DNA of 50,572 nucleotides, taken from positions 1-50,572 of the forward strand of contig JAKOXK010000011.1 of assembly GCA_029781035.1 (NCBI GenBank), written 5' to 3'. Under the pieces are notes generated by a model that was not told the DNA's origin, ran no database searches, and saw only the letters and a list, made by a program, of their open reading frames with translations. Origin of the DNA: Armatimonadota bacterium (GTDB taxonomy: Bacteria > Armatimonadota > Fimbriimonadia > Fimbriimonadales > Fimbriimonadaceae). A program made the position numbers and the translations under genes. Numbering within the stretch: position 1 is the stretch's first letter; each line of letters begins with the position of its first letter. Positions 48,599-50,572 of this stretch are shown piece by piece.

Positions 48599-49864
48599 CT
48601 AAGCCGCTTGACGGCAGTCACTGACGCTTTGGTCAGCCGCCTCGAGAAGTGACTTGGCAGACCGGCCGTCATCGGGTGACGAGGCATGCCCTAGCTTCAC
48701 CTGCAAAGATCCTGCCGCGGTTGCCCGTCCGACCAGCCATTGTTCAAACCGGCGCTCGAGCCTATGCCGGACAAGGATGGCGTTCGCCGTCGTTTCGGGA
48801 AGGATGATGCCGAAGCCGGTTTTTCCGATGCGGCAAACCACGTCGAGCGTCCGGACAGACGACCGGAGAAACTCAGCTGCATCGGCCAAGAAGTCGGTGA
48901 CGCTGGAATCTCCGTAGAACCGCTGCATAGCCTCAAGGCCGGTGAACTCGACCGTTACGATGGCCACTCCCGAGCCCGAACCCGTGCTCCTGTGGATCTC
49001 CTCGGTCAGCCTGCCCGAGAAGTATCCCTCAGTGTAGGCGCGGGTCATCAGATCGATCACTTGACCGGTCTCGGGGTAGTCCTTCCGGAGGGAGCGGTCC
49101 GCTTCCTCTTCAGAATTCAGAATTCGTCGGAGCTTGTTGAGACTCTGCCTCAGAATGTGGGAGACGTAGTTACAGGAGATGTCCAGTTTTGACGCGATCT
49201 CCGTCTGATTGAGCGACTCAAAGTGGAACAGGATAAGCACTTCTCGCTCAAGGTCACGGAGCTGCCTCATCGCGTCTTCAAGTACGACCCTGTCTTCGAC
49301 GCTCACTTGCCCTGAGGACGACTCTGCCGACTCCAGTTTGTCGATGTCCGTGTCGCTCTCGTCATCCTCTTGGATCGGCGCGTCCAAGGACGTGACCCGA
49401 AGCAGCTCTTGCGTGGCCATGACTTCGCGGACGGCCTGTTCGCTGACCTTGCACGCGTCGGCGATCTCCCGTTCAGTCGGCGTTCGACCCAAGTCGGCTT
49501 GAAGCGTGATCGTCGCTCTGTTGAGCCGTTGCCGCAACTCTTGGACCCATGCCGGGTGGCGAATGATCTGGGCCCGGTCACGAAGGTAATGTTTGATCTC
49601 TCCTGCCACAAGGTGGGTGGCATATGTGTTGAACCGGACTCCAGCTTCCGGGTCGAACTTGCTCAAGGCGTTGAGGAGCCCAATGTAGCCGACCTGTACG
49701 AGGTCGTCCAATGGCTCCACCCCGCTGAAACGGCGCGCTATCCGTTCCACCATGTTCGAGTACTGGAGGATGATCACGTCCTTCAAGTCGGGACGCGGGT
49801 CGTTCAAGTACTCGAGCACGAGGTGCTCGGGATCGTGCATCGAACCAGCAACAGCTTCTGACAT
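48599..49864 (-). CDS. Sigma-70 family factor fused to a degenerate GGDEF domain
   Basis: 421 residues. The ATG at 49864 has GGAG 6 nt upstream; a GTG at 49885 is the alternative. Region 2 is about 25-98 (LVQVGYIGLLNALSKFDP), region 3 about 99-165, and region 4 about 195-250 (LNQTEIASKLDIS, then VSHILRQSLNKLRR). This is the architecture of the SigF/SigB/SigG branch. From about 265 to the end lies a full GGDEF-fold domain (YFSGRLTEEI, FYGDSSVTDFLADAAEFL). The signature is GKTGF (347-351) instead of GGDEF, and the metal-ligand Asp positions are Glu306 and Thr308. RTLD (338-341) sits exactly five residues before it, matching the I-site RxxD. I infer loss of cyclase activity and possible c-di-GMP binding. 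Confidence 0.88.
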   Translation of the reverse strand: MSEAVAGSMHDPEHLVLEYLNDPRPDLKDVIILQYSNMVERIARRFSGVEPLDDLVQVGYIGLLNALSKFDPEAGVRFNTYATHLVAGEIKHYLRDRAQIIRHPAWVQELRQRLNRATITLQADLGRTPTEREIADACKVSEQAVREVMATQELLRVTSLDAPIQEDDESDTDIDKLESAESSSGQVSVEDRVVLEDAMRQLRDLEREVLILFHFESLNQTEIASKLDISCNYVSHILRQSLNKLRRILNSEEEADRSLRKDYPETGQVIDLMTRAYTEGYFSGRLTEEIHRSTGSGSGVAIVTVEFTGLEAMQRFYGDSSVTDFLADAAEFLRSSVRTLDVVCRIGKTGFGIILPETTANAILVRHRLERRFEQWLVGRATAAGSLQVKLGHASSPDDGRSAKSLLEAADQSVSDCRQAA

Positions 49865-49994
49865 TTTCACTCCGTTGATCGTCACCAGACATCCTGCCTG
49901 GTGTCCGCGCTCAACCCTTCAGGGGTTTCCCGCGGCCTGCTTGCTGCTCCCCCCGCCTCCTGCGGGGTTCGCGAAAGAACCTATTTTGGTCGGG

Positions 49995-50016
49995 GAACGG
50001 GCGACCTTGCCCGTTC
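49995..50016. terminator. Perfect 8-bp stem-loop after the pilC gene
   Basis: GAACGGGC (49995-50002), loop GACCTT, GCCCGTTC (50009-50016). It lies 6 bp beyond the pilC stop on the minus strand and 110 bp or more upstream of the sigma-factor start. There is no T-run, so it may be a Rho-dependent or stabilising structure. Confidence 0.45.
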
Positions 50017-50022
50017 AGTCGT

Positions 50023-50572
50023 CTACGATTTGCCCACGCTGTTCACGATCGTGAAGATCGGGGTCATGACCGAGATGGCGATGAACCCTACGACGCCACC
50101 GAGGAAGATGATCAGCATGGGCTCGATCATCGACGTCAAGCCCTTGACGGTCGCTTCGACCTCGCTGTCGTAGAAGTCGCCGACTTTGACGAGCATCTCG
50201 CTCAGTCGGCCAGACTCCTCACCCACGTCGATCATGTGCGTGACCATGCTAGGGAACAGCCCGGATTGGGCGAGCGGTGAGCTGAGCTTCTGCCCCTCTC
50301 TAATGCTGACCCGCGTCTTCTCGATCGCCTCCGACAAGACCGCGTTTCCGAGGGTCTCGCCAACGATCTCGAGGCTACGAATCATCGGAACACCGCTGTT
50401 GATCAAGGTGCCGAACGTTCGGCAGAACCGTGCCACGCTCATCTTGAGCGAGAGTTCACCGACAATGGGAACCTTGAGCTTGAAGAAATCGAGTTTGTAA
50501 CGGCCTTTGGGGGTCTTGCCGTAGATCTTGAGCCCAATGATCGTCGCACCGATCATGAGCAGGATCGTCCAC
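50023..50572 (-). CDS. Type IV pilus / type II secretion inner-membrane protein PilC/GspF (5' part outside window)
   Basis: The frame runs off the right edge of the window, so the N-terminal part is missing. The visible 180 or so residues match the second T2SSF domain: a hydrophobic segment at the start (LLMIGATIIGLKIYG), FCRTFGTLINSGVPMIRSLEIV, VTHMIDVGEESGRLSEMLVKV, and the closing TM pair (PMLIIFLGGVVGFIAISVMTPIF). This platform protein assembles pseudopilin fibres together with the PilB/GspE ATPase. It belongs to a pil/gsp cluster that continues beyond the window. Confidence 0.94.
   Translation of the reverse strand, partial: WTILLMIGATIIGLKIYGKTPKGRYKLDFFKLKVPIVGELSLKMSVARFCRTFGTLINSGVPMIRSLEIVGETLGNAVLSEAIEKTRVSIREGQKLSSPLAQSGLFPSMVTHMIDVGEESGRLSEMLVKVGDFYDSEVEATVKGLTSMIEPMLIIFLGGVVGFIAISVMTPIFTIVNSVGKS

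Follow-up and report, generated by a model that had tools for sequence, protein, structure and literature searches.

The closest described parallel to the protein analyzed here is the RsiG-(c-di-GMP)-WhiG system of Actinobacteria, described as the sole sigma/anti-sigma complex known to be a target of c-di-GMP. There an anti-sigma factor distinct from WhiG, the coiled-coil protein RsiG with a motif of its own, binds the second messenger, and in Rubrobacter the switch is tied to promoters of type IV pili that have GCCGATAA as their -10 element (PMC8325347). The sigma-GGDEF fusion protein discussed below resembles this system in being an alternative sigma factor under (here putative) c-di-GMP control and in its link to pili, but its putative receptor is a GGDEF fold within the sigma chain itself, and both its phylum and its sigma subgroup (SigBFG) are different. 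GGDEF domains that serve as c-di-GMP receptors through their I-site, as is putatively the case in the fusion, are exemplified by the SgmT histidine kinase of Myxococcus (PMC3509222), but the output of SgmT-type receptors is a histidine kinase or another effector, whereas here the output is the RNA polymerase sigma subunit. Diguanylate cyclases of the PleD type, which undergo product inhibition at the I-site (PDB 1w25, 2v0n, 2wb4), carry the same four I-site residues, and among solved structures PleD has the closest fold, and one of the closest sequences, to the GGDEF domain of the fusion; unlike PleD, the fusion has no catalytic site, and it has a sigma factor where PleD has receiver domains. 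Finally, CorE of Myxococcus (copper; PMC3107203) and the ECF56 protein SigG1 (SnoaL_2; PMC7730460) are one-protein sigma factors with their own regulatory extensions, but both belong to the ECF sigma factors, their extensions are of other kinds, and neither has a second-messenger receptor domain. Both halves of the fusion are of known kinds, and what appears to be new is their joining into one conserved regulator. The first-pass annotation of this DNA knew of no described case, and our search of the full-text open-access literature likewise found no description of such a sigma-GGDEF protein (absence there is not proof).

Gene, domains and distribution of the fusion

The window (the whole stretch of DNA that was analyzed, 50,572 nucleotides) carries the fusion gene on its minus strand, with the ATG at 49864, the last codon at 48602 and the stop at 48599-48601, and a GGAG Shine-Dalgarno sequence lies just 5' of the ATG. 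The first-pass annotation had the limits of the gene right but gave no strand. The gene and its domains are as follows:

48599..49864, minus strand: sigma-GGDEF fusion gene, 421 codons plus stop (P0001); open reading frame, Pfam, orthologues
49571..49771, minus strand: sigma-70 region 2, residues 32-98; Pfam PF04542, 1.2e-15
49346..49540, minus strand: sigma-70 region 3, residues 109-173; Pfam PF04539, 2e-11
49127..49273, minus strand: sigma-70 region 4, residues 198-246; Pfam PF04545, 1.1e-10
49082..49174, minus strand: continuous helix leading from region 4 in the direction of the GGDEF domain, residues 231-261; AlphaFold2 model
48611..49057, minus strand: catalytically degenerate GGDEF domain, residues 270-418; Pfam PF00990, 1.6e-17, and fold match to PleD

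All four Pfam domains exceed their curated cut-offs, and these matches, together with the AlphaFold2 model and its fold match to PleD, bear out the earlier description of sigma regions 2-4 followed without a break by a complete GGDEF fold. The model, built from an alignment, has a mean pLDDT of 86, with blocks across residues 270-410 mostly above 90 and a well-formed GGDEF fold, whose best structural match is c-di-GMP-bound PleD (Z 20.1, rmsd 2.5, 152 residues). The pTM is only 0.49, so the model gives no confident arrangement of the domains and does not predict how they are placed. The best other homologue in the source genome matches the sigma region only, with 33% identity, so this genome has a single copy of the fusion.

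Sigma regions 2, 3 and 4 are present in the order of the SigB/SigF/SigG architecture, and the nearest NCBIfam model is that of the SigB/SigF/SigG group, TIGR02980 (187.5 bits, 2.8e-55); this score is below the curated cut-off of 234.35 bits, so the sigma part is a relative of that group and not a curated TIGR02980 member. Against the FliA/WhiG model TIGR02479 it scores about 128-130 bits, below the cut-off of 189.6, and so is not a member there. A separate FliA/WhiG sigma factor is encoded on contig C6 of the source genome (232 bits against the same cut-off), and region 2.4 of the fusion (GEIKHYLRDRAQIIRHPAW) is unlike region 2.4 of this WhiG-type protein. The fusion and a WhiG-type sigma factor are both present in nearly all genomes checked, and in one locus (L239; G013:C1:1046000-1065500) their genes lie about 9 kb apart.

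The full-length fusion is found in 97 of the 113 genomes of the source's order, one copy in each, and also in many other families of Armatimonadota; all 40 loci examined from outside the order carry it. The genome search was centred on Armatimonadota, and one further contig scan matched close relatives only. Other genomes encode sigma factors of this group that have no GGDEF domain. A maximum-likelihood tree built from the sigma region places all fused proteins on one side of a single branch (support 98/92, 98% of bootstrap trees); because the sigma parts thus form one clade the fusion has a single origin, and the tree fits one fusion event with mainly vertical descent afterwards. Since the fusion and its RxxD motif (below) are conserved through the phylum, the observation is far beyond chance. 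The module is dispensable, because in one genus eight genomes that are close to complete have no fusion, and five of these retain GGDEF proteins. In one single-contig genome (G094) the orthologue L099 (C1:2834296-2835300) has a frame that is broken in the GGDEF domain, with a stop after about residue 335 and the remainder of the domain in another frame, which is either a real loss or a sequencing error.

Loss of the active site and retention of the I-site

Conservation was counted in an alignment of 106 non-redundant fusion orthologues, with identities down to about 35%, and the residues of the C-terminal domain were compared with those of PleD. In PleD, R313, R359, D362 and R390 are the c-di-GMP-binding residues of the I-site. 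The features that correspond to the I-site and to the signature motif are:

48989..48991, minus strand: R292, equivalent to PleD R313 of the secondary I-site, R in 105/106; PleD and orthologue alignments
48842..48853, minus strand: RTLD, the primary I-site, with R338 and D341 equivalent to PleD R359 and D362, both invariant (106/106); alignments
48812..48826, minus strand: GKTGF, residues 347-351, at the place of GG(D/E)EF; translation and orthologue alignment
48761..48763, minus strand: R368, equivalent to PleD R390 of the secondary I-site, R in 102/106; PleD and orthologue alignments

RTLD occupies residues 338-341, five residues ahead of GKTGF as had been noted at first reading, so that the fusion has the I-site receptor motif, an RxxD at this distance from the GGDEF position, together with its accessory arginines. 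R338 and D341 are the sole invariant columns of the C-terminal domain. The signature of an active diguanylate cyclase is replaced by GKTGF, and the positions that align with PleD D327, K332, N335, D344, G369 and E370 (E306, E311, Q314, T323, K348 and T349, respectively) are all variable among the orthologues, with entropies of about 3 bits or more. The first-pass annotation was therefore right about the loss of the active site, and right to place one metal ligand at E306, but its second ligand, T308, must be replaced by T349, since it is E306 and T349 that align with PleD D327 and E370. It had also named two findings that would count against its reading, an RxxD that varies among orthologues and a GG(D/E)EF recovered in close relatives, the latter as the mark of a simply decayed copy; in the alignment RxxD is kept in 106/106 orthologues and GG(D/E)EF occurs in 0/106, so the fusion is not one decayed copy. 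Even in the distant members L138, L139 and L140, in which part of the substrate-binding stretch is gone, RxxD is retained. As read from these alignments, the diguanylate cyclase site of the fusion is lost and its I-site is strictly retained.

These observations also dispose of the idea that the fusion is a gene-prediction or assembly artefact, or that its C-terminal domain is decayed and non-functional. The broken frame in G094 would be in keeping with it, but the frame is uninterrupted in the listed orthologues apart from that copy and a few that are cut by contig ends, the sigma parts form one clade, and R338 and D341 are invariant; we give the idea practically no credence and have rejected it.

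Among 37 control domains, GGDEF domains of these genomes with an intact signature, 25 have RxxD and 12 lack it, a rough baseline in that the controls come mostly from best-scoring matches, and four of the seven intact GGDEF domains of the source genome have neither the R nor the D. The motif is therefore dispensable for the GGDEF fold. This bears on the suggestion that the domain works without a ligand, as a module for dimerisation or for docking a partner, with its conserved Arg and Asp residues forming salt bridges inside the fusion or to a partner such as PilC. R285, E288 and E289 of the first GGDEF helix, which are not canonical I-site residues, are almost as conserved as the I-site among the 106 orthologues, and with R292 they form a nearly invariant set on one helix; degenerate GGDEF/EAL proteins do also serve as interaction modules (PMC5635695). 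However, RxxD is no requirement of the fold, since 12 of the 37 intact domains lack it, and another GGDEF protein is always present in carriers of the fusion within the order. The invariance moreover hits exactly the positions that correspond to the c-di-GMP-binding residues of PleD, the distant R368 included, and we regard a docking module as improbable.

We think it less probable still, and assign it only a slim chance, that what the domain senses is not c-di-GMP but a different nucleotide, be it GTP, ppGpp or some other cyclic dinucleotide. PleD has been crystallised with c-di-GMP and ppGpp or pppGpp (entries 9g85 and 9g86), which lends the idea some plausibility, but the positions of the PleD substrate site (D327, K332, N335, D344 and E370) are lost in the fusion and variable, whereas the product-binding I-site is retained.

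Linkage to pilC and the promoter upstream

The gene directly upstream of the fusion encodes a pilus protein:

50023..50571, minus strand: pilC (T2SSF), cut by the contig end; Pfam PF00482, 3.4e-31, and synteny

In 55 of 88 fusion neighbourhoods the gene that precedes the fusion on its strand is pilC, and in several families the gene order is secretin, pilB, pilT, pilC, fusion; in close relatives pilC is probably the first gene of an operon with the fusion. The gap between the two genes in the window (49866-50023) contains an inverted repeat, GAACGGGCAAGGTCGCCCGTTC on the minus strand, with no T run.

A k-mer search directly upstream of the fusion gene was dominated by the coding 3' end of pilC, and the search was moved upstream of pilC. 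There an unbiased motif search found TgCCGA(C/T)AAT(C/T) in nearly all of 28 non-redundant Fimbriimonadaceae loci, mostly 50-75 bases 5' of the start codon (score 106, versus 26-37 on shuffled sequence); since the source stretch ends within pilC, this box is seen in relatives only. It matches the FliA/WhiG -10 element, GCCGATAA (PMC8325347), and judged by its sequence the box ahead of the pilC operon is a -10 of this type; SigB and sigma-70 consensus promoters show no enrichment upstream of pilC. Among loci without pilC the box occurs within 200 bases upstream of the fusion gene in 8 of 27, where 0.5 would be expected, and L115 and L116 have it there as a complete TAAA-N15-GCCGATAA. Five loci from families without pilC (L105-L108 and L111) have a GGCAATAAT(T/C) box in place of GCCGATAAT, 100-200 bases upstream of the fusion gene, which perhaps reflects a shifted promoter specificity.

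A search of the regions upstream of pilC and of the fusion gene did not find the fusion sigma's own target promoter, and we consider a cascade from a WhiG-type sigma factor to the fusion at least as likely as autoregulation. It is possible, if on balance doubtful, that the fusion is controlled mainly at the level of its expression, with the separate WhiG-type sigma factor driving the pilC operon and the GGDEF domain providing only fine-tuning. Such control would agree with the presence of that factor in the source genome, with the FliA/WhiG -10 of the operon promoter in relatives, and with a fusion region 2.4 that is unlike the WhiG type; however, it leaves the strictly conserved I-site unexplained, and it is compatible with, and does not exclude, c-di-GMP sensing by the fusion.

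c-di-GMP supply and a possible mechanism

The source genome encodes one EAL domain, one PilZ domain and nine GGDEF domains, seven of which have an intact signature, and on this gene content it should make c-di-GMP. At least one other GGDEF domain is present in all 97 fusion genomes of the order, and the fusion is absent from all six genomes of the order that have no GGDEF domain. Three of the six are 98-99% complete, and because the six represent two lineages only, this co-absence is support and not a strong statistic. In one genus of the source's family, three genomes that are close to complete (G047, G048 and G055) have neither a GGDEF domain nor the fusion, which suggests that c-di-GMP signalling has been lost there.

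We consider it likely that the fusion is an alternative sigma factor with a putative c-di-GMP receptor domain in cis, which gates pilus-linked transcription; the evidence thus supports the proposal made at first reading, a sigma factor of one protein gated directly by c-di-GMP (or another nucleotide). What is established for the fusion, and underlies this reading, is its architecture, single origin, spread, site loss and retention, pilus linkage and -10 box, together with the presence of cyclases. The dead GGDEF domain would bind c-di-GMP at its I-site, probably as an intercalated dimer that bridges two domains as in PleD; binding would change dimerisation, or the position of region 4 by way of the continuous 231-261 helix, and the change would block or permit holoenzyme formation or promoter binding. 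The output would be transcription connected with type IV pili and life on surfaces. We lean slightly towards c-di-GMP inhibiting the fusion sigma rather than activating it, on the model of WhiG and of PleD, which is inhibited by its product.

With somewhat less assurance, though still on the favourable side, we propose that this is a phylum-wide, one-protein, c-di-GMP-gated sigma factor that evolved independently of RsiG-WhiG and couples pilus-linked transcription directly to c-di-GMP, and that in genome-reduced members one cyclase and the fusion may be most of a minimal circuit. If so, it would be the shortest known route from c-di-GMP to RNA polymerase, across a little-studied phylum, and the one-protein counterpart of a switch for which actinobacteria have provided the sole known example, made of two proteins. 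The fusion offers a testable case of convergence, in which c-di-GMP, a sigma factor and type IV pili would have come together twice, and for organisms with no described c-di-GMP output it supplies a candidate effector.

Two reduced genomes of 1.5 Mb (G081 and G082) encode exactly two GGDEF proteins each, the fusion (L095 and L096) and one intact cyclase (L191 in G081, L194 in G082), which has GGEEF and a receiver/PAS-like N-terminal part; the pair is possibly a minimal c-di-GMP circuit. The source genome itself has a second degenerate GGDEF protein (L152; G000:C18:17891-18310), with a PAS-like N-terminal part, in which SLFEF replaces GG(D/E)EF and the I-site motif, RQHD, is intact, and this protein is another candidate c-di-GMP receptor.
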